From NCBI RefSeq assembly GCF_012027555.1, contig NZ_SNUQ01000005.1, positions 1 through 64,000 on the forward strand: a DNA stretch of 64,000 nt, read 5' to 3'. Below are positions 18,875-28,512 of this stretch, piece after piece. The stretch comes from Thermococcus sp. CX2. GTDB lineage: Archaea; Methanobacteriota_B; Thermococci; Thermococcales; Thermococcaceae. Positions within the stretch are counted from its first letter, which is position 1, and each line of letters begins with the position of its first letter. A program made the position numbers and the translations under genes. The notes beneath the pieces were generated by a model, which worked only from the letters and a program-made list of their open reading frames with translations, was not told the DNA's origin and did not search any database.

Positions 18875-19399
18875 ATGGAGATAACCGACAAAGAGGTTTT
18901 TGAGATTGCCATAAGCTCTGAGATTAGGGCCAAGGAAGCCTACGAAAAACTCGCTTCTGTAATTAAAAGCGACATTATAAGAGACGAAATTCTCTTCCTG
19001 GCGAAGGAGGAAGACAAACACCGCGAGATAATCGAGAAAATGGCCGAGAAGTTCGAGGGCGAGAGGACTGAGCCGAAGAAGATAGAGATCGATGTTATGG
19101 CCGAGTTCAAGGTCATAGCCGAGAAGATGGCCGAAGTCATCAAGAAGCCCGATGCCAACATCGATGAGATTTACGAGATAGCTATGCAGGCTGAACTCGT
19201 CAGCGAGAAGCTCTACAAGGAGCTCGCAGGCTACGCTGCCACCGAGAAGACCAGGCTCATCCTCGAGATGCTCGCAGATATGGAGAGGAACCACTACAAC
19301 ATCCTCAGGAAGCAGTACGACTACATAATGCGCTATCCTGAGCTCTACAAGGAGGAGTTCTACGACCAGCTCATGAAGGACATCAACTTCAACTTCTGA
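18875..19399 (+). CDS. Ferritin-like diiron protein (rubrerythrin-related, no rubredoxin domain)
   Basis: 174 residues, almost wholly helical, arranged as two ferritin-like repeats. Helix pairs carry the iron ligands: Glu in ISSEIRAKEAYEKLA, EEDKHREI (ExxH), Glu in AMQAELVSEKLYKELA, and DMERNHYNIL (ExxH). Six carboxylates and two histidines are thus present. It ends YDYIMRYPELYKEEFYD, as in other Thermococcales paralogues in this window. Peroxide reduction or iron handling is likely. The ATG follows GGTGATT by six bases. Confidence 0.8.
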   Translation: MEITDKEVFEIAISSEIRAKEAYEKLASVIKSDIIRDEILFLAKEEDKHREIIEKMAEKFEGERTEPKKIEIDVMAEFKVIAEKMAEVIKKPDANIDEIYEIAMQAELVSEKLYKELAGYAATEKTRLILEMLADMERNHYNILRKQYDYIMRYPELYKEEFYDQLMKDINFNF

Positions 19400-19685
19400 G
19401 CCCCGTTCACGTCACTCCATATAGCATAAGCCCAGGATACTGTAGATACTATACTTTACCTAAATTCTTAGCTTTTTTGATCTTATTAAAAATGCTCCAC
19501 CCAGCATGGGCATGCAAAGCAAAGGTAGACAAGGCCGAAATTTTATTAACGAATTATCCTTTTTATGTAACACTATGTGCCAAATATATGGGCATATTTT
19601 TAGCAATGTCCTGCAATTTGGGCACAAACTGTGTATAACTGTGATACTGGGGAAAAAGTTTATATATGTAGAAAAACTGATTATT
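19400..19685. other. Intergenic region upstream of the DOMON lipoprotein, with an imperfect inverted repeat
   Basis: No gene seen. An imperfect inverted repeat, GTGCCAAAT at 19577-19585 and ATTTGGGCAC at 19616-19625, encloses 30 bases. The promoter TATA (TTTATATATG, about 19659-19668) of the next gene follows. Confidence 0.4.
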
Positions 19686-19699
19686 TTAGGTGAACCTAA
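19686..19699 (+). promoter_or_regulatory. DtxR-like palindrome TTAGGT-GA-ACCTAA over the ribosome binding site of the DOMON gene
   Basis: A perfect 6-bp-arm palindrome, 20-25 bases downstream of the TATA box and ending at the ATG. It resembles metal-dependent DtxR/MntR-family operators (TTAGG...CCTAA). Occupancy would block initiation or early elongation, giving repression under metal-replete conditions. Part of the match is shared with the GGTGA ribosome binding site, so chance contributes. Confidence 0.45.
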
Positions 19700-20310
19700 T
19701 GAAGAGAACTTTGTTGGGTTTGATTTTTGTTTTTGTGGTTTTTCTGAGCGGATGCATAGGCGGTGAGAGTACTTCAACAACATCTTCCTCAGTTTCTACG
19801 GCGACAACTCTAAGTGAGTGGAAAGCAGACGGCGTTATCGGGGAAAACGAATACTCCCATAAGCTCTCACTTGCCGATGGCAAGTTTGTTGTACACTGGA
19901 GGAACGATGGGGAGTACCTCTACGTGGCCCTCAAGGGGCAGACGACGGGTTGGGTGGCAATAGGGTTTGAGCCGAGCGTTGCAATGAAGGATGCCGACAT
20001 GATCTTCGGCTGGGTGCAGGATGGTCAGATCGTGGTCATAGACGCGTACTCGACGGGGACCTATGGGCCTCACCCTCCTGATGGGGAGCTGGGCGGAACG
20101 AACGATATTCTGGCCTTCGCTGGAAAAGAGGAGAACGGCTACACCGTTATAGAGTTCAAGAGAAAGCTTGATACGGGCGATCAGTATGACAATGCCTTCA
20201 AGCCGGGGCAGAAGATAAACTTTATTTTTGCGATGGCGGACAGCGACAGCTTTACCCAAAAGCACAACATAGCCAGGGGAAATGGTGAACTCACGCTGGA
20301 TGAGATCTGA
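19699..20310 (+). CDS. DOMON-domain lipoprotein, putative extracytoplasmic heme/redox protein
   Basis: 203 residues. A lipoprotein signal peptide has lipobox LSGC with Cys19, then a Ser/Thr-rich linker. Residues about 45-200 form a DOMON-type beta-sandwich (EWKADGVIGENEYSHK, HWRNDGEYLYVALKG, WVAIGFEPS, MKDADMIFGWVQDG, DAYSTGTYGPHPPD, EFKRKLDTGD). DOMON domains bind heme b or sugars and commonly pair with b561 membrane subunits, and the next gene fits that role. The ATG at 19699 is chosen because the GTG three codons upstream is part of GGTGA. Confidence 0.82.
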   Translation: MKRTLLGLIFVFVVFLSGCIGGESTSTTSSSVSTATTLSEWKADGVIGENEYSHKLSLADGKFVVHWRNDGEYLYVALKGQTTGWVAIGFEPSVAMKDADMIFGWVQDGQIVVIDAYSTGTYGPHPPDGELGGTNDILAFAGKEENGYTVIEFKRKLDTGDQYDNAFKPGQKINFIFAMADSDSFTQKHNIARGNGELTLDEI

Positions 20311-20341
20311 TAATGACTATACCTCCAAGATGGTGATTCCA

Positions 20342-20692
20342 ATGGAGCCATTCCAGATACATGCCATAATCCAGATTTCAGCACTGCTGAGCGCTCTCAT
20401 TGGAATACGCTACGCAAAAAGCCACAACCTAAAGATGCACCATACCTTCATCTACACTACCGTTATCCTGCTAACCATCGGCATCGGCTACATGCTCTAC
20501 ACAACCAGAGCCCTCTCTCCACACGGAGCGCTCGGACTCTTCGTTTACCTCTACCTCCTCCTCACGGCCTTAAGCGGCAGGGCTTTTTTGGCAAGAAAAA
20601 TTACAAGGAATCGGCACAAGCGTTTGGCCATGATTGCGGTGCTTCTATTAACCCTCCAAATCCTACTGGCAGTTTACAGCTTCCTTCTCTGA
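20342..20692 (+). CDS. Four-helix membrane protein, cytochrome b561-like
   Basis: 116 residues with four predicted membrane helices (about 8-24, 36-53, 60-78, 95-115). Histidines at helix ends (His7, His33/34, His61, His92) are spaced as expected for the four axial heme ligands of a minimal b561-type core. It follows the DOMON lipoprotein after 31 bases, so a membrane heme shuttle reducing an external DOMON protein is plausible. The ATG at 20342 (MEPFQIHAII) follows GGTGATT. Family assignment is inferred, not certain. Confidence 0.65.
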   Translation: MEPFQIHAIIQISALLSALIGIRYAKSHNLKMHHTFIYTTVILLTIGIGYMLYTTRALSPHGALGLFVYLYLLLTALSGRAFLARKITRNRHKRLAMIAVLLLTLQILLAVYSFLL

Positions 20693-21271: not shown

Positions 21272-21748
21272 ATGGACGAGCTTGAGGCACTTGCTCTTGC
21301 CCTTGAAGTTGAGAAGGTCGAGCTGGAGTTCTACCTTGAAATGGCGAGAAATGCAAAAGAGGAGCGAGCAAGGAAGATGTTCCTGTTTCTGGCTGGAGAA
21401 GAAGCCGGACACTGGGATATATTTGAAGAAAAATTCGCTGAAAAGCTCGTAGAAAAATGCAAGCTTCCGGCGGTTGATAAAGATACTTTAGAAAAGCTGA
21501 CGCCGAAGTATGAAGGCGAGCTCAGTGAGGTCAAAGCCGTTGAGATTGGTATGGAGCAGGAAAAGCTCACATGGGAGTTTTACGAGAAGGCCGCTGAGGA
21601 AGCCAAGGACGAGAACGTGAGGAGGATCTTCCGTGAGCTGGCTAAGGTTGAGAAAGCTCATTACGAGCTTTTAAAGGCCCAGTATGATGCCGTCATGAAG
21701 ACCGGGATATGGATGGATTATCAGGACTTCAGCCTAGAGGTGGATTAG
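21272..21748 (+). CDS. Ferritin-like diiron protein (rubrerythrin-related)
   Basis: 158 residues with two helix-pair repeats carrying ligands: Glu in VEKVELEFYLEMA, GEEAGHWDIF (ExxxH form), Glu in GMEQEKLTWEFYEKA, and VEKAHYELL (ExxH). The C-terminus KAQYDAVMKTGIWMDYQDF matches the paralogue at 18875. It is divergent from the GNAT gene. The ATG follows GGTGGT. Likely a peroxidase or iron-binding member of the same oxidative-stress set. Confidence 0.78.
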   Translation: MDELEALALALEVEKVELEFYLEMARNAKEERARKMFLFLAGEEAGHWDIFEEKFAEKLVEKCKLPAVDKDTLEKLTPKYEGELSEVKAVEIGMEQEKLTWEFYEKAAEEAKDENVRRIFRELAKVEKAHYELLKAQYDAVMKTGIWMDYQDFSLEVD

Positions 21749-21965: not shown

Positions 21966-22265
21966 ATGTTGGGAATGAACCCGATTTCCATAAACAAAGA
22001 GAAACTGTCCAAAAGGGAAATCGCCCAGGCCCTTCGATGGGCCATAATGGCCGAGCTCGATGCCATCAACTTCTACGAGCAGTTCGCGGAGCTTATTGAT
22101 GACGAGGCTGTAAAGCACACCTTCTTGGATGTGGCCAACGAGGAGAAGGAGCACGTGGGTGAGTTTTTAGCTCTACTCCTCAAGCTCGACCCTGAGCTGG
22201 GCAAGTATATGAAGAGGGGCTTTGAGGAAGTCGAGGAGGAGACTGGCATAAAGGTCGAGCTCTGA
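21966..22265 (+). CDS. Stand-alone encapsulated-ferritin-like (EncFtn) protein
   Basis: 99 residues. The sequence INKEKLSKREIAQALRWAIM, AELDAINFYEQ, NEEKEHVGEFLALLLKLDPE and GFEEVEEETGI closely follows the ferritin-like N-terminal domain of the Pyrococcus encapsulin-ferritin fusion. Glu in AELDAINFYEQ and the ExxH of NEEKEHVGE are the diiron ligands. The encapsulin shell part is absent and no shell gene is seen in the window. It is either a free two-helix ferritin that dimerises or the remnant of a fusion. The ATG follows GGTGATGTGA. Confidence 0.8.
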   Translation: MLGMNPISINKEKLSKREIAQALRWAIMAELDAINFYEQFAELIDDEAVKHTFLDVANEEKEHVGEFLALLLKLDPELGKYMKRGFEEVEEETGIKVEL

Positions 22266-22335: not shown

Positions 22336-22860
22336 TCAAGGCCCGACGTTCATCATCTGGGAATACATTGTCCAGTCTAGGAGGAGTTCGTATTCGGCTT
22401 TGAGCGTGTAGTAGTGGCCTCTTTCCATGTTGGAGAGATAGCGCATCAGCCTTTTCTTCTCTTCAGTGTCCACCATGTCCTCAAGCCTGCCGTAGAACTC
22501 CGCGGCTATCTCCTCGGCCTTCATGGCCCAGCGTACAAGATCTATGATGTCCTCGACCTTATGAAGCTCCCGGGCAACGGGCTTAAGCTCAGGACCTATG
22601 TGTTCCTTCGGGAAGACCACCTCTTCGCCCGGGAACATGTTGGCGTAGAGTTCTCTCAAAAACTTCTCGTGTTTCTCCTCCTCTCTCGCGAGCCACTTCA
22701 CCTTCTCCTCAAGAGCCTCCATATCCATGTTTTCTGCCAGGCTCTTGTAGAACTTCTTCGCTCCAATCTCGGCCTTGATGGCCATTCCGAGGAGCTCCTG
22801 AAGCGAGAACTCCCCGGCCTTTTCGAGGGGAAGCCCCTCATCAAGTTCAGGTGGAACCAC
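22336..22860 (-). CDS. Ferritin-like diiron protein in an operon with two DUF59 proteins
   Basis: 174 residues. Ligands are in AIKAEIGAKKFYKSL, REEEKHEKFL, AMKAEEIAAEFYGRLE and NMERGHYYTL, i.e. two ExxH motifs plus four Glu. The end YELLLDWTMYSQMMNVGP differs from the paralogues. GTG start at 22860, three bases after the stop of the DUF59 gene upstream. Co-expression with MIP18-like proteins suggests a role around iron supply or protection of Fe-S assembly. Confidence 0.78.
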   Translation of the reverse strand: MVPPELDEGLPLEKAGEFSLQELLGMAIKAEIGAKKFYKSLAENMDMEALEEKVKWLAREEEKHEKFLRELYANMFPGEEVVFPKEHIGPELKPVARELHKVEDIIDLVRWAMKAEEIAAEFYGRLEDMVDTEEKKRLMRYLSNMERGHYYTLKAEYELLLDWTMYSQMMNVGP

Positions 22861-22863
22861 AAA

Positions 22864-23214
22864 TCATCCCTCCGCAAGCAACAGTCCAAGTTCGTTATAG
22901 ACCTTTATTTTATTAAAGCCTTCCTCCTTGAGAATTTGAAGGATCTCGTTCAGAATCTTGTTCTGTACGTTTATCGCCAGCATCTGGCAGGCGTGACATT
23001 CTGGAGTGGAGCGGGCCATGAGGAGGAAAACGTCAACCCTATCTCCTTCAACCGTCAGGCCGTAGACCAGTCCCTCATCCACGATGTTAACGTCAGTTTC
23101 CGGATCCTTAACTTTCTTCAGAATCTCGACTACCCTTTGAACCTCTGGAGGCAGATCCTTACGCGGTCCTGATTTTGGTCTTTTCCCCGACCTCAGGAGA
23201 TCAAAGAGCCCCAT
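22864..23214 (-). CDS. MIP18/PaaD (DUF59) family protein, putative Fe-S cluster assembly factor
   Basis: 116 residues. The DUF59 core is VVEILKKVKDPETDVNIVDEGLVYGLTVEGDRVDVFLLM, including the conserved DPE(T)-xxNIVDxGLV. It then has CHACQMLA with a CxxC where the family's reactive cysteine lies. DUF59 proteins help deliver or repair Fe-S clusters. It is the middle gene of a three-gene operon (three-base gaps on both sides). Confidence 0.78.
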   Translation of the reverse strand: MGLFDLLRSGKRPKSGPRKDLPPEVQRVVEILKKVKDPETDVNIVDEGLVYGLTVEGDRVDVFLLMARSTPECHACQMLAINVQNKILNEILQILKEEGFNKIKVYNELGLLLAEG

Positions 23215-23217
23215 AGC

Positions 23218-23577
23218 TCAGACCTTCTCCGAGCTCAAATCTTCGATCGTATAGCCTTTCTTGTTCTCAAAAACTCCGACAGGGTTGTTCCTGAGGTCGT
23301 AGACATAGACGTTGTCGAACTTGACGAGGGCAAAGCGCTCGATGATGTCACCGATTATCTTGGAGTATGCTATCGCCGACTGGCCGGTTATGTTGTACTC
23401 GGCGTGGCTCTCGAAGTTGAGCCAGATTTTCAGGGTGTCCTCCCCGACCTCTAGGCCGGCTATGACACCTGAATCGAGGATGTCTCCCCCCGTGATCGGG
23501 TCAGTTATCTTCCTCAGCTCGTCGAGAACGGCCTTATAGTGCTCCGGCCACTCTCGATTGGGCATGTAAACCTTCAT
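23218..23577 (-). CDS. DUF59-like protein, divergent
   Basis: 119 residues. Core LRKITDPITGGDILDSGVIAG then GEDTLKIWLNF follows the DUF59 pattern, but DPE is replaced by DPI and no cysteine is present, so it may be a structural paralogue. First gene of the operon; ATG at 23577 with GGTGGAG upstream (a GTG three codons earlier is part of that site). Confidence 0.65.
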   Translation of the reverse strand: MKVYMPNREWPEHYKAVLDELRKITDPITGGDILDSGVIAGLEVGEDTLKIWLNFESHAEYNITGQSAIAYSKIIGDIIERFALVKFDNVYVYDLRNNPVGVFENKKGYTIEDLSSEKV

Positions 23578-23626
23578 CTTCTCCACCGGTCATGAAATCA
23601 GTATGTCAGGTTAAAAGCCTTCCTGG

Positions 23627-23761
23627 TCAGGTCTGTCCAGTATTCCAACGGTCGGTATTACTGATGTCGCTCCTCTCGAGGTTTCTGAAGGTGAGCCACG
23701 TGAGGGCAATTCCAAGAAGAGTAATCGCCCCGCCGATTCTCATCACTAGCTGATCTAACAT
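23627..23761 (-). CDS. Possible 44-residue single-pass membrane protein
   Basis: An ATG-initiated ORF with one hydrophobic helix (about 7-24, MRIGGAITLLGIALTWLTF) followed by a charged tail (RNLERSDISN). It fills most of the 299-base gap between the DUF59 operon and superoxide reductase. Upstream is AT-rich sequence and a weak TTGGGAAG ribosome binding site. It may be the distal gene of the rubrerythrin-rubredoxin-SOR unit or stand alone. No family recognised. Confidence 0.4.
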   Translation of the reverse strand: MLDQLVMRIGGAITLLGIALTWLTFRNLERSDISNTDRWNTGQT

Positions 23762-23876
23762 CTTCCCAACGCCTTACGTGTTTTTACTTTTACACTTTCT
23801 CAGTGGAAGTAGATAAAGCTTTCGAGAAGAGCTACAATGGAAAAAAGAGAAAGGATGGGGGCTGGGGCCTGAGCTT

Positions 23877-24224
23877 TCACTCAAGCGCGACCTCGTTTTC
23901 CCAGAGGCCGTGGATGTTGCAGTAGCTCAGGGCGTAGAGTTTGCCCTTCTTCTGGGTCCTGAGGAAGAAGATAGCCTTCGGCTCGGTGAGCGGGTCGCTG
24001 TGGTTGGTGAAGGCAACCCTGCCGACGAGAATCGGGAAGTTGCCATCCTCGGGGTGGAAGTAAAGCTCGATCCAGGCGATGTGGTGCTCGGGAGTGTTCG
24101 GGTGCGGGATTTCTTTGCCGACGCTGACCTCAACCTTGATGAGGTCGCCGTCCTTCTCGTACTCTATAACGGGCACGTGCTTTTCTCCCTTCCAGTCTCC
24201 ACTCTTTATGGTTCCGCTCAGCAT
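23877..24224 (-). CDS. sorA: Superoxide reductase (neelaredoxin type)
   Basis: 115 residues, class II SOR without a desulforedoxin domain. The mononuclear iron ligands are at the expected places: Glu14 and His16 (GDWKGEKH), His41, His47 (HPNTPEHH), and Cys and His in SYCNIHGLW near the C-terminus. It reduces superoxide to peroxide with electrons from rubredoxin, whose gene is directly upstream. The ATG at 24224 follows GAGGTGG. Confidence 0.96.
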   Translation of the reverse strand: MLSGTIKSGDWKGEKHVPVIEYEKDGDLIKVEVSVGKEIPHPNTPEHHIAWIELYFHPEDGNFPILVGRVAFTNHSDPLTEPKAIFFLRTQKKGKLYALSYCNIHGLWENEVALE

Positions 24225-24234
24225 CTCTACCACC

Positions 24235-24396
24235 TCACTCTATCTTTTCAAACATGTCCTTGGGGGCGCCGCAGAGCGGGCAGACCCAGTCTTCGGGAAG
24301 GTCTTCAAACTTGGTTCCCGGCTCGATTCCGGTGTCCAGGTCGCCTTCATCCTCATCGTAGATGTATCCACAAACTATGCATTTCCACTTTGCCAT
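24235..24396 (-). CDS. rub: Rubredoxin
   Basis: 53 residues: [29 protein letters not shown] and [12 protein letters not shown] give the two CxxC iron-sulfur tetrahedral sites and the usual aromatic core. It carries electrons from NAD(P)H:rubredoxin oxidoreductase (gene at 25083) to superoxide reductase and rubrerythrin. The stop lies 10 bases before the sorA ATG. The ATG at 24396 follows GAGGTAATAGG. Confidence 0.95.
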
Positions 24397-24429
24397 TCCT
24401 ATTACCTCACTCTAATGTTATTAGTCGGG

Positions 24430-24453
24430 CCTTATAAGGTTTGCGTTTCAAAC
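24430..24453 (-). promoter_or_regulatory. Promoter of rubredoxin-sorA with a GTTTGAAAC (GTTn3AAC) site
   Basis: On the minus strand GTTTGAAAC (24445-24453) precedes the TATA-like CCTTATAAGG (24430-24439). GTTn3AAC is the half-site of the Thermococcales redox regulator SurR. A single half-site can occur by chance. Confidence 0.45.
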
Positions 24454-24478
24454 TTGTTCATTAAGAAAAACAAAGAAA

Positions 24479-24994
24479 TCACTCGAAGATCACAAACTTA
24501 TCCCCAGGAACACCGCACACCGGGCACTTCTCGGGGATTTCATCGACGACGGTGTAGCCGCAAACGGGACAGATGTAAACCTTCTTTATCTCTATGTCCT
24601 CGCCTTTTTCGACCTTCTCTTTTGCCTTCGCGTAGAACTCAGCATGTATCTTCTCTGCCTCGAGGGCGTAGTGGGTTGTTCTGACGGCATCCTTCTCGCC
24701 CTGGAACTCGGCCGCGTTCTTGAAGACAGGGTACATCTCCTCGACCTCGTGGGTCTCCCCGTTTATGGCCTCCTGCAGGTTCTCGGGAGTCTTGCCCAGC
24801 TTCCCGAGGGCTATGAAGTGGTTCTTGGCATGGACAAACTCGGCATAGGCTATCGCTCTGAAGATCTTGGCTATGTTAGGATAGCCCTCCTTCTCCGCCT
24901 GCTCGGCGAAGATAAGGTACTTCATGTGGGCCATGCTTTCGCCAGCGAAGGCCTCCTCCAGAAACTTCCTAGTCATTTTCCTTTCCACAACCAT
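24479..24994 (-). CDS. rbr: Rubrerythrin
   Basis: 171 residues. The N-terminal four-helix diiron domain has ESMAHMKYLIFAEQAEKEG, EFVHAKNH and ALEAEKIHAEFY ligands. The C-terminal rubredoxin domain has ICPVCGYTVVDEIPEKCPVCG, with two CxxC. It is the NADH peroxidase end of the rubredoxin electron chain, close to the characterised Pyrococcus rubrerythrin. The ATG at 24994 follows GGTGATAGT. Separate promoter from rubredoxin-sorA (84 bases between). Confidence 0.95.
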   Translation of the reverse strand: MVVERKMTRKFLEEAFAGESMAHMKYLIFAEQAEKEGYPNIAKIFRAIAYAEFVHAKNHFIALGKLGKTPENLQEAINGETHEVEEMYPVFKNAAEFQGEKDAVRTTHYALEAEKIHAEFYAKAKEKVEKGEDIEIKKVYICPVCGYTVVDEIPEKCPVCGVPGDKFVIFE

Positions 24995-25036
24995 ACTATC
25001 ACCAACAGGAGTTCTGCATTAATAGTTGGGCGGTGA

Positions 25037-25047
25037 GGTATATAACG
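25037..25047 (-). promoter_or_regulatory. TATA box of rubrerythrin
   Basis: Minus-strand CGTTATATACC, 43 bases upstream of the rubrerythrin ATG. Confidence 0.5.
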
Positions 25048-25082
25048 ATTTTCCAAACCCTGAGTTTGTACACTTTATCATT

Positions 25083-26168
25083 TCAGTCAATAGGCAGCCC
25101 TTCTTTGATTGCTTTTTCAACCTCCATGGCTCTCCTTACGTCTCCGAGCACAACTGCCCCAATGGGCTTTTCATCTTTGTAGAAAACTTTCGTTTTTTCA
25201 TCAAGCCACCTGCCTTCTCCCCTTGTTCTTCCAATCAATGCAACGTTTAAGTCGGCGAACTTAAAGAGCGCCGAGCAGAAGGAGAAGTCGTGGCTGTTAT
25301 CCTGCCCCCTGAGCAGGTTTGTGAGGATCTTTGCATGCTCCACGGCGGCTTTGGCAGTCCCGCATATCGTCCCGCTGTACTCGGCGCAGTCGCCTATTGC
25401 ATAGACGTCCTTCGCGGAGGTTCTGAACCCTGCATCTATGAATATTCCACGCCCGGCGTGGATTCCGCTCCTCAAAGCCAGCTCTTTGTTGGGAACTACC
25501 CCGAAGGCGCAGACCTTAAGCCTCCCAGAGATGTATCCCCTATCGGTCTCCACACCGTTCTCATCGGCCTTCAGGAGGTTGGCCTCGAGGTGGAACTCAA
25601 CTCCGACCTCCTCCAGCTTTTCCTGGAGCTTTTCGCTTAGCTCCTCGTCCAGCCTGAGGAAATTCTTGCTCCTATGAATGAGCTTGACAGAATAGCCAGC
25701 CTTGGCAACATTCCCGGCCAGCTCAAGCCCTATAAAGCCGCCGCCGATGACTGTGATTTCTCCCTCTTCCTCAAGCCTTTCCCTTATCATCTTGGCGTCG
25801 TCAAAGGTTCTTAGGGTCAGGACGTGCTCCCTCCCGGGTACGGAAGGCTCTCTTGCCCTCGCGCCAGTCGCAAGAACGAGGACGTCATAGGGAATCTCCC
25901 CTCTGCTCGTTACGAGAACCTTCCTCGCTCTGTCTATGACCTTGGCTTCAACGCCTAATCTGAGGTCTATTCCATTCCGCTCGTACCATTCGGCTGAATA
26001 CGGAAAAAGGGCCTTTTCATCCACGAATCCTGCTATGTAGTGGCTCAGCATCGGCTTTGAGTAGTAAGGGAGCTCTTCTTTGTCCACTATTGTTACTTCA
26101 AAGTCCCCCGAGAGTCTCTTGGCAAGCTCAACTCCTCCGGGCCCATCGCCGACTATTACAACCCTCAC
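25083..26168 (-). CDS. nror: NAD(P)H:rubredoxin oxidoreductase
   Basis: 361 residues, FAD-dependent pyridine nucleotide-disulfide oxidoreductase fold. N-terminal FAD GxGxxG ([17 protein letters not shown]), [29 protein letters not shown]-binding [19 protein letters not shown], and [13 protein letters not shown]. It is nearly collinear with Pyrococcus furiosus NROR. It feeds rubredoxin and through it SOR, rubrerythrin and the flavodiiron protein encoded nearby. It is the second gene of a pair, nine bases after the ferritin-like gene. Confidence 0.93.
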
Positions 26169-26177
26169 GCTGTCACC

Positions 26178-26717
26178 TCACGACCGCGTGTGGGGCGCTA
26201 GGTAAAGTTCGAGCTGGGTGTTAAGGTGCTCGATGGGAGCGTTGACGTATTCTGGCTTGCCCTCCGTGACGTCCTCGAGATATTCAACGTGGGACTTTAT
26301 GGACGCGTAGTGGGATCTCTCCTGCGCCGCCAGAAATCCGAATATGGCCCCGTGCTCTGGGAGGAGTTTTTCCAGGTGCGTGTATAGCCTCTCTGAGGTT
26401 TTTTCACTGAGCAGGGCAACTCTCATAGCCTCTACGAGGTTGGCGACAGTGTCGACCCTGATCGAGTTTTCGGCGAAGGGTATCCCTTCGGGAACGGTGT
26501 AGTCGGTATCCCCAAAGAGCGTTTCGTGCAGCCTTAGAAGAGTCTCCTTGTGGGAGTTCTCAGCTTTAGCAAGGGTCTGGAAGAAGTCTCTGAGCAGCCC
26601 TCCTGTTCTGGAGGCGAGGCGCTCATAAAAAGCTTTGGCGTCATCTTCTGAGGCTATAGCGTAGCCGATTATCTCCCTCAGGGGGAGCTCAACAAGTTTA
26701 TCAAGAATTTCATCCAT
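26178..26717 (-). CDS. Ferritin-like diiron protein cotranscribed with NROR
   Basis: 179 residues. Two helix-pair repeats: AIASEDDAKAFYERLA with AENSHKETL, then ALLSEKTSERLYTHLE with AQERSHYASI. Compared with its paralogues, the first ExxH is ENSH and several Glu positions are replaced (SEDD, SEKT), so iron ligation may be altered. The ATG at 26717 follows GGTGAT; TATA-like GTTTAAATA lies upstream. Directly upstream of NROR, suggesting it is a redox partner. Confidence 0.72.
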   Translation of the reverse strand: MDEILDKLVELPLREIIGYAIASEDDAKAFYERLASRTGGLLRDFFQTLAKAENSHKETLLRLHETLFGDTDYTVPEGIPFAENSIRVDTVANLVEAMRVALLSEKTSERLYTHLEKLLPEHGAIFGFLAAQERSHYASIKSHVEYLEDVTEGKPEYVNAPIEHLNTQLELYLAPHTRS

Positions 26718-26788
26718 TGGTATCACCTAATGTAATATCTGTGTTTGAAGTATTTAAACCTACGCAGTGGGGTCAAATAATAAAAAGG

Positions 26789-28018
26789 TCAGGAAATCCA
26801 TGCAACGAGCTTTCTCACGCCTTCTCTGAGTTTCTCTTCGTCCTCTGGAGTCGGCCAGCCGCGCGATTCAACAGTGTCTACGTGGTCGAACTTGCTCCTC
26901 GTTATGAGGGTCTCTATCTTCTTTCCAGCAACGCCGCCCCAGCCAAAGGCGCCGACGATGAGGACGGGCTTCTCGTAGTTTGCCTTATCAACTATCTCAT
27001 AGAGAGCATAGCGTATCCTCGGGTGTATCTCGGCTTCGTAAGTTGAGGCTCCTATTATTATCGCCTCACTGTCGGGAATCTCCCCGAGGATGTCGCTAAC
27101 TGCCGGCGCCTCTTTGTCCGTGAACTTGTAGACTACCGGGTTGAAGCCGTGCTTCCTGAGCTCGTCCAAAACAATCTCCATCCTCCTCTCGACAAAGCCG
27201 TACATCGAGTCGTAGATGACGAGAACCTTGCCCTTCTTTACCTTCCCAGCACCGACAGCCTCGTAGTACTCAAAGATCCTGGCCGGATTCTTGCGCCAGA
27301 TGAGCCCGTGGCCCGGGAGTATCATCTTTGCTTCTTCAATTATGCCGAGGTCTTTGAGCTTCTTTATATTCTGGACTATGTACTTGTGGTAGTGGCCTAT
27401 GACCGTGACGATGTATTTCCTCACGTGGGGGAGGTACTCCTGAACGACCTTTTCGTCGCTGTCGTCAATGACTGGGGGAATGGAGTAGCCTCCGCCGGCG
27501 TCGCAGCTGAAGATGAGCTTATCCTCAACGACGTAGGTTATCATTGTGTCCGGCCAGTGCAGCCACGGGACGGTTATGAAGCGGAAGGTTTTTCCGCCGA
27601 TGTTAATCTCCTCGCCGTCCTTGATTGCGTAGAAGTTCTCGACGACCTTTTCTCCGTAGAATCCCTCAAGGAAGCGCTTCGCAAAGCTCGTGCCTATGAG
27701 CTGGGCCCTGTATCCGTTGGCCTCAAGAACTGCCGGAAGGGCCCCGCTGTGGTCCGGCTCGGTGTGATGGATGATGATGTGTGTTATCTCTTTGGGGTCA
27801 ACGATGCTCTTGAGGGCCTCCATGAATTCCTCTGTGTACTCTTTCTTGGTTATGTCAAAGAGAACAACGGCATCTTTGAGCTTCATGAGGTAAGCGTTGT
27901 AGGTTATGCCCTCCGGGATGTCCCAGGTGGCCTCGAAGTACTTGATCCTGTCGTCATCAATCCTTATGAGGTAAAGCTCGGGATCATCCAGTATTTTTTC
28001 AGTCCAGGCCTTTGGCAT
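26789..28018 (-). CDS. fprA: Flavodiiron protein (A-type flavoprotein)
   Basis: 409 residues. An N-terminal metallo-beta-lactamase-like diiron domain has HHTEPDHSG and the HWPDTM/CDAGG and GHGLIW ligands. A C-terminal flavodoxin domain (from about 255, VLVIYDSMYGFVERRM) binds FMN. It reduces oxygen to water (or NO) with rubredoxin as donor. The ATG at 28018 follows GGTGGTGATGG; two further in-frame starts lie just upstream. Last gene of a kor-prx-fdp series. Confidence 0.92.
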   Translation of the reverse strand: MPKAWTEKILDDPELYLIRIDDDRIKYFEATWDIPEGITYNAYLMKLKDAVVLFDITKKEYTEEFMEALKSIVDPKEITHIIIHHTEPDHSGALPAVLEANGYRAQLIGTSFAKRFLEGFYGEKVVENFYAIKDGEEINIGGKTFRFITVPWLHWPDTMITYVVEDKLIFSCDAGGGYSIPPVIDDSDEKVVQEYLPHVRKYIVTVIGHYHKYIVQNIKKLKDLGIIEEAKMILPGHGLIWRKNPARIFEYYEAVGAGKVKKGKVLVIYDSMYGFVERRMEIVLDELRKHGFNPVVYKFTDKEAPAVSDILGEIPDSEAIIIGASTYEAEIHPRIRYALYEIVDKANYEKPVLIVGAFGWGGVAGKKIETLITRSKFDHVDTVESRGWPTPEDEEKLREGVRKLVAWIS

Positions 28019-28059
28019 TGCCATCACCACCTTTGAGTTCTCTTTCCATGGTTATTAAT

Positions 28060-28512
28060 TCATCCCTTCAGGACTGCTAGTATCTCGTTTAAGTCCGGAA
28101 GCTCTCCGAGAGGATAGACCTTCACAAAAGCCACCCTGCCGTTTTCGTCTATTATCACGTTCGCCCTTTCCGAGATGCCATCCTTCTCCCTGAAGAGGCC
28201 GTACTTCCGGGCAACTTCCCCATGGGGCCAGAAGTCCGCCAGGATTCTGAGCTTTTTAAGGCTCATGTGCTCTGCCCATGCCTTCTTTGTGGGGACTGAA
28301 TCAACGCTTATTCCCACAGGAACAACGTTGAGCTCCTCAAGCTCATCGTAATGCTCCTCTAGGGCCTTCATTTGCCTTTCACAGATGTTCGTCCATGCTA
28401 AGGGGTGGAAAGAGAGCAGAACTCTCCTCCCCCTGAAGTCGCTCAGCCTGAACTCCTCCCCATTCTGGTCTTTCAAAACAAAATCCGGTGCAACATCACC
28501 AACTTTTACCAT
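28060..28512 (-). CDS. Peroxiredoxin, thioredoxin-fold (AhpE/Bcp type)
   Basis: 150 residues. VGDVAPDFVLKDQNGEEF, FHPLAWTNICERQMKAL with a peroxidatic cysteine near residue 44, and ISVDSVPTKKAWAEH. The usual PxxxT/SxxC is here PLAWTNIC. There is only one cysteine, so it is a 1-Cys type needing an external reductant. It starts one base after the korB stop. Confidence 0.85.
   Translation of the reverse strand: MVKVGDVAPDFVLKDQNGEEFRLSDFRGRRVLLSFHPLAWTNICERQMKALEEHYDELEELNVVPVGISVDSVPTKKAWAEHMSLKKLRILADFWPHGEVARKYGLFREKDGISERANVIIDENGRVAFVKVYPLGELPDLNEILAVLKG

Follow-up and report, generated by a model that had tools for sequence, protein, structure and literature searches.

Two adjacent open reading frames, one for a DOMON lipoprotein and one for a small, histidine-bearing membrane protein, raise the question of whether their products form a route for electrons across an archaeal membrane and, if so, what is reduced outside. 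The best reading of the comparisons reported here, with a probability of about 0.5, is a two-polypeptide b-heme electron conduit that resembles CYBDOM ferric reductases and reduces extracellular Fe(III). The window (the whole stretch of 64,000 nucleotides that was analysed) is from a genome of 1.80 Mb in 25 contigs, and relatives were drawn from a class of 115 genomes, 94 of which form the family (f1) that was taken as Thermococcaceae, the relatives retrieved by name being MAGs of Thermococcaceae/Thermococcus.

The gene pair, its neighbours and its distribution

Features of the window considered in the analysis were as follows.

18875–19399, + strand: rubrerythrin/ferritin-like protein (Pfam PF02915, 54.5 bits), directly upstream of the DOMON gene on the same strand
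19659–19668, + strand: TATA-box-like element TTTATATATG, seen in the sequence
19686–19699: palindrome TTAGGTGAACCTAA, a putative DtxR-type iron box that contains the Shine-Dalgarno-like AGGTGA
19699–20310, + strand: DOMON lipoprotein, 203 aa (Pfam PF03351; ATG at 19699, stop at 20308–20310)
20342–20692, + strand: four-helix b561-like membrane protein, 116 aa (ATG at 20342, stop at 20690–20692)
21272–21748, + strand: ferritin-like protein (PF02915, 56.9 bits)
21966–22265, + strand: short ferritin-like protein (PF02915, 35.8 bits)
22336–22860, − strand: rubrerythrin-family protein (PF02915, 106.3 bits)
23877–24233: desulfoferrodoxin, in an oxygen/peroxide-defence cluster
24479–24994: rubrerythrin with a rubredoxin domain, in the same cluster
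26789–28030: ODP/flavodoxin protein, in the same cluster
28060–28512: AhpC-family protein, in the same cluster

Both reading frames of the minimal pair described in the initial annotation, i.e., a DOMON lipoprotein and a 116-residue four-helix protein with histidines, were found where they had been placed. The membrane ORF of the window starts 31 nt 3' of the DOMON ORF and is preceded by the Shine-Dalgarno-like GGTGAT; several relatives instead have an ATGA motif at which the ORFs overlap. Ratios of dN/dS calculated against one close relative were approximately 0.11–0.17 for the DOMON gene and 0.10–0.13 for the membrane gene, which points to purifying selection on both. Synonymous divergence between the window pair and that of G014 was approximately 0.3–0.4 for the DOMON gene and 1.5–2.1 for the membrane gene, as if the membrane half had perhaps been swapped by recombination.

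The nearby iron genes mentioned in the initial annotation proved to be rubrerythrin/ferritin-family and desulfoferrodoxin genes, i.e., genes for iron and oxygen-stress proteins. The oxygen/peroxide-defence cluster occupies positions 22336–28512. Among 17 loci of the pair, ferritin-like genes were noted no more than 4 ORFs away at 15, and a Fur-family gene was present at 6. Such surroundings bear on the possibility of a heme conduit with another outer acceptor, whether sulfur/polysulfide, oxygen/peroxide or a neighbouring secreted redox protein, in which case redox protection would account for a position next to genes for rubrerythrin, desulfoferrodoxin and peroxiredoxin. The rubrerythrin-family, desulfoferrodoxin, ODP/flavodoxin-domain and AhpC-family peroxiredoxin genes of the window are consistent with this possibility, as are the peroxiredoxin-like, molybdopterin-domain and secreted-repeat genes near the pair in some relatives, but the start of the DOMON gene carries a DtxR-type palindrome common to feoAB of this genome, and CYBDOM proteins with tested activity reduce ferric iron (excerpts of PMC10691727 and PMC10784552). 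An acceptor other than iron was judged possible but rather unlikely.

The membrane family was found in 23 of the 115 genomes, every one in f1, and the search of the class found the membrane protein in no other family; DOMON was found in 33 of the 94 f1 genomes. By hand count, the pair was intact in 15 of the 23 genomes with a membrane gene (G000, G014, G035, G038, G044, G048, G056, G061, G062, G074, G075, G076, G077, G080 and G087), while inspection by eye indicated a broken, shortened or missing half in 7 (G003, G017, G042, G043, G057, G084 and G089), and in 1 (G081) the pair was cut by a contig end. The pair is thus retained in some lineages and decaying in others. G056 carries a second, broken membrane copy besides its intact pair, and G089 has the membrane gene and no DOMON match. 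A search for wider relatives among genome contigs gave 4 loci, all from Thermococcaceae, and a plasmid search gave no match for either protein. No paper on the pair was found in the literature searched; wider absence from print is not claimed.

DOMON proteins fell into two types. Type a precedes the membrane gene in f1 while type b occurs without it, and of five type b loci read downstream, four had a HAD-type hydrolase gene (one of them checked with Pfam) 3' of the DOMON gene. Two type a copies belong to family f3, where the membrane partner family is absent.

Ligand-type residues and fold of the two proteins

The DOMON assignment was made from the Pfam match (PF03351, 104.3 bits against a cut-off of 32.7, E 6.8e-30), and a lipobox, LSGC, at residues 16–19 indicated Cys19 as the lipid anchor. 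Ligand residues were compared at 33 submitted loci, 32 of which were alignable (L107 lacks the motif); L105, L106, L108 and second DOMON copies without a locus were left out. Histidines not conserved among homologues would, according to the initial annotation, have refuted its reading; here they were conserved, with Met96 retained in 32 of 32 DOMON copies, His189 in 31 of 32 (the exception, G017, ends before this residue) and, as described below, all six membrane histidines in 19 of 19 intact copies. The distance between Met96 and His189, 93 residues, agrees with the approximately 90 of a conserved heme-type ligand pair equals the corresponding distance of 93 in fly CG8399 (Met286/His379) and is close to the 91 of CRR (Met89/His180), according to excerpts of PMC10691727 and PMC10784552; correspondence to CDH and CYBDOM proteins was set by motif and spacing, with no direct alignment to CDH. 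Four residues after His189, all 20 readable type a copies have a basic residue and all 11 type b copies have Ala, and the equivalent residue of CG8399, Arg383, is modelled as contacting its b561 domain (excerpts of PMC10691727). Correlation of the basic residue with pairing is not perfect, given the two type a copies from the partnerless family f3.

The structure model of the DOMON protein was poor (pLDDT 53). It matched the DOMON domain of DBH (Z 12.2), the gamma subunit of ethylbenzene dehydrogenase (Z 10.3), the cytochrome domain of CDH (Z 9.5) and nitrite oxidoreductase C (Z 9.1) and also CBM9 sugar-binding modules (Z 9.1–9.6) and antibody domains (approximately 8–9). A comparison of the sequence with solved structures gave only nitrite oxidoreductase C (E 0.048) and two chance-level rows. 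The CBM9 matches would suit a DOMON protein that binds sugars or other ligands at the cell surface beside an unrelated four-helix membrane protein, as would the membrane gene of G089 without DOMON and the type b DOMON genes without a membrane gene. However, the Met96/His189 pair is present in every readable copy, whereas sugar-binding DOMONs reportedly do not conserve such a pair (excerpts of PMC10691727 and PMC10784552), and gene order is retained in 15 genomes. A sugar-binding role was judged very improbable.

The membrane protein has histidines at positions 7, 28, 33, 34, 61 and 92. Comparison of 22 copies, three of them broken or truncated (G003, G017 and G043) and with G081 and the second G056 copy left out, indicated that all six were retained in each of the 19 intact ones. 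In an AlphaFold2 model from a four-row alignment (mean pLDDT 76, pTM 0.58), helices extended over residues 3–26, 30–55, 60–83 and 89–115. Given these helix limits, the membrane face with His7 and His61 is opposite that with His33/34 and His92, so that the pattern expected of a b561 core, four conserved histidines on four helices at alternating faces, was seen in 19 of 19 copies. Ten of 11 Lys/Arg residues are on the His33/34–His92 face, while the sole acidic residue and the remaining Arg are on the His7/His61 face (faces as assigned by us). By the positive-inside rule, the former face would therefore be cytoplasmic and the latter outside, adjoining the lipoprotein, and the putative ligand pairs would be His7/His61 outside and His33 or His34 with His92 inside. 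Positions H1+7 (Ala14) and H4+4 (Ala96), reported to be small in eukaryotic b561, were small in the 20 readable, untruncated copies also, with 19 Ala and 1 Ser at the first and 17 Ala and 3 Thr at the second.

Homology searches gave a less definite picture. The membrane protein exceeded no curated Pfam cut-off, although DUF420, DUF4079 and cytochrome b561 recurred below threshold. Thus, scores for cytochrome b561 (PF03188) were 10.6 bits for the window protein against a cut-off of 23 and 11.1–13.9 bits, likewise below threshold, for three of five relatives scanned, and scores for DUF420 (PF04238) were 18.1 bits for the window protein and 23.9 for the best relative against a cut-off of 30.5. 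EamA, the top Pfam match in three of the five relatives scanned, was rejected as it too was below threshold. A search of PDB sequences with the membrane profile gave no match up to E 10. In VIA-align, b561 (4o6y) spanned all 116 residues with 19% identity and Z 11.7, and entries 4o6y and 4o7g had the highest identity among the 50 rows listed, while de novo bundles reached Z 14.7, above b561. Foldseek gave no match for the membrane model at E 0.001; b561 ranked 20th (E 0.43, 18% identity), below oxidase subunit III, and unrelated rows likewise reached 19% identity. Because Pfam scores were below threshold and fold matches ambiguous, the protein is described as one that would work like a minimal b561, and membership of the b561 family is not proven.

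Among known systems, CYBDOM ferric reductases (SDR2/CG8399 of animals, CRR and HYP1 of plants) are alike in the outer DOMON domain, in the nearly equal Met/His spacing, in a membrane core with four histidines on alternating faces and in the link to iron. They differ in that DOMON and b561 domains are in one chain as opposed to two ORFs 31 nt apart, and the present pair has four helices only, a lipid anchor and an archaeal host without HemB and HemC, in which ascorbate would not be expected as donor. CRR pairs its histidines 1–3 and 2–4 (220–289 and 256–325; excerpts of PMC10784552), and this order is common to the membrane protein, but with spacings of 27, 27 and 31 rather than the longer 36, 33 and 36 of CRR. 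Cytochrome b561 (4o6y; PF03188) shares the four-helix core, the four histidines and the small residues at H1+7 and H4+4, while the membrane protein differs in its sub-threshold Pfam score, in having no flanking helices and in two extra invariant histidines. DUF420 and DUF4079 are likewise small membrane families that matched repeatedly, none at the curated cut-off. The cytochrome domain of CDH, plant AIR12 and the gamma subunit of ethylbenzene dehydrogenase have a DOMON-type fold, with Met/His in CDH; to our knowledge, these three are soluble or GPI-anchored and have no such membrane partner gene.

Supply of heme

HemB was found in none of the 94 Thermococcaceae genomes and in 11 of 14 controls, and the same counts were obtained for HemC, which in the class was present in 13 of 115 genomes, all of families f3 and f4. 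Synthesis of heme via AhbD was considered and rejected; TIGR04545 matched in every one of the 94 genomes, always below its cut-off, and in all 14 controls, one of which exceeded it, and these matches were read as generic radical SAM enzymes. Since neither HemB nor HemC was found in Thermococcaceae, a gap that the initial annotation did not mention, heme or a late precursor would have to be taken up if the pair holds heme.

The same result favours a pair that holds no heme, in which the histidines and the Met/His residues would bind iron or copper directly as an iron-binding or iron-passing system of the cell surface. Six invariant histidines, more than the four needed by a b561 core, and the ferritin-like neighbours of the pair are also consistent with direct metal binding. 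On the other hand, the Met–His distance and the pairing of histidines by membrane face are those expected if heme is ligated as in CYBDOM proteins, and DOMON domains with a Met/His pair, e.g., that of CDH, bind heme (excerpts of PMC10691727). Direct binding of metal was judged improbable.

DUF4405 matched in 75 of the 115 genomes of the class, 66 of them over the cut-off, and we take it to be a predicted family of small membrane cytochromes; the question of heme is thus wider than the DOMON/membrane pair. In the genome of the window, a DUF4405 protein of 80 aa is encoded beside another iron-box palindrome (L094 1532–1774, G000:C1). A further DUF4405 protein, of 244 aa, is encoded at L116 1018–1752. 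Both are candidates for membrane cytochromes where the genome has no HemB or HemC. In family f3, which has HemC, DOMON occurs without a b561-like partner, and a DUF4405 gene is close by at two loci (L103 2333–2581 and L105 1145–1393).

The iron-box-like palindrome and the proposed route of electrons

An iron-box-like palindrome, as initially annotated, is present at 19686–19699 (TTAGGTGAACCTAA); it ends on the A of the DOMON start codon and overlaps the Shine-Dalgarno sequence. Its motif, TTAGGN4CCTAA, which we take to be that of DtxR, was found 12 times in the genome versus once for a reversed control pattern. One site is directly before feoA (with feoB), and others are directly before genes for a ZIP transporter, a NUBPL/Mrp-type iron-sulfur carrier and a MinD-type ATPase with ferredoxin domains; further sites, inspected by eye, are near genes with no obvious connection to iron, e.g., pyruvate kinase-like and phosphate-lyase-like genes. 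The genome has one DtxR-family gene and a weak Fur-family match (23.5 bits, cut-off 23.1). In P. furiosus, DtxR is reportedly the iron regulator of feoAB. The promoter role of the element at 19659–19668 rests on archaeal promoter rules, by which this TATA-like box would put the palindrome near the start of transcription, in the position of a repressor site.

Conservation of the palindrome among relatives was uneven. Scores were 9–10 of 10 in 4 of 14 DOMON upstream regions and 6–8 of 10 in the other 10, and an exact copy was noted in a fifth genome, G017, before its broken DOMON gene. A Fisher test of 4/14 DOMON against 13/353 background upstream regions gave p 0.002; the background consisted of unfiltered ORFs and included exact motifs between acetyltransferase and peroxiredoxin-like genes at four loci, probably counted from both sides. 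No promoter element common to all relatives was found among the DOMON upstream regions, the part common to most being AGGTGA, which looks like a Shine-Dalgarno sequence. Given the high scores in only 4 of 14 regions and the Shine-Dalgarno overlap, iron control of the operon is plausible for certain species, though its generality is unproven. Four relatives also have the motif before a peroxiredoxin-like gene, approximately 0.6 kb 3' of the pair (L077 10097–10110 and matching places in L081, L084 and L085).

The two-protein route for electrons proposed at the outset finds partial support in invariant ligand-type residues, Met–His spacing, helix topology, gene order and an iron-type operator. 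In the scheme inferred here, which extends to heme binding, topology, the passage of electrons, the iron acceptor, repression by DtxR and scavenging of heme, the membrane protein would hold a stack of two b hemes that spans the membrane, one on the cytoplasmic side between His33 or His34 and His92 and one on the outer side between His7 and His61. Single electrons would pass from a cytoplasmic donor through these to a third heme, for which Met96 and His189 of the lipid-anchored DOMON protein would serve as ligands on the outer surface; this heme would reduce extracellular Fe(III) for entry of Fe(II) via FeoAB. At low iron, a DtxR-type repressor would probably free the operon in this species, and heme would be acquired by uptake, HemB and HemC being missing. 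Ferric reduction for uptake is the most likely use of the pair in this species. An extension of this scheme, in which a three-heme conduit runs on scavenged heme, repeated decay of the pair tracks how much heme or iron is available locally and the two-gene form could resemble the ancestor of eukaryotic CYBDOM ferric reductases, is offered tentatively, as somewhat doubtful.

Membrane redox chemistry of Thermococcaceae is pictured as hydrogenase-based and cytochrome-free. If the CYBDOM-like reading is true, these archaea use heme despite missing core synthesis genes, which would revise that picture, and the pair would serve as a small, heat-stable model in which electron transfer by CYBDOM proteins and uptake of iron can be tested genetically. 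A further testable question is whether a Thermococcus takes up and uses heme.

At four loci of relatives (L076, L077, L080 and L089), genes on the opposite strand adjoin the DOMON gene. These encode a small secreted protein with a molybdopterin domain (PF00174, 99 bits), a histidine-bearing membrane protein of 113–115 aa, an ArsR-type regulator and a long secreted-repeat protein (PF03640, 271 bits), the set of four not being complete everywhere, and together they look like a second outward redox module beside the pair.
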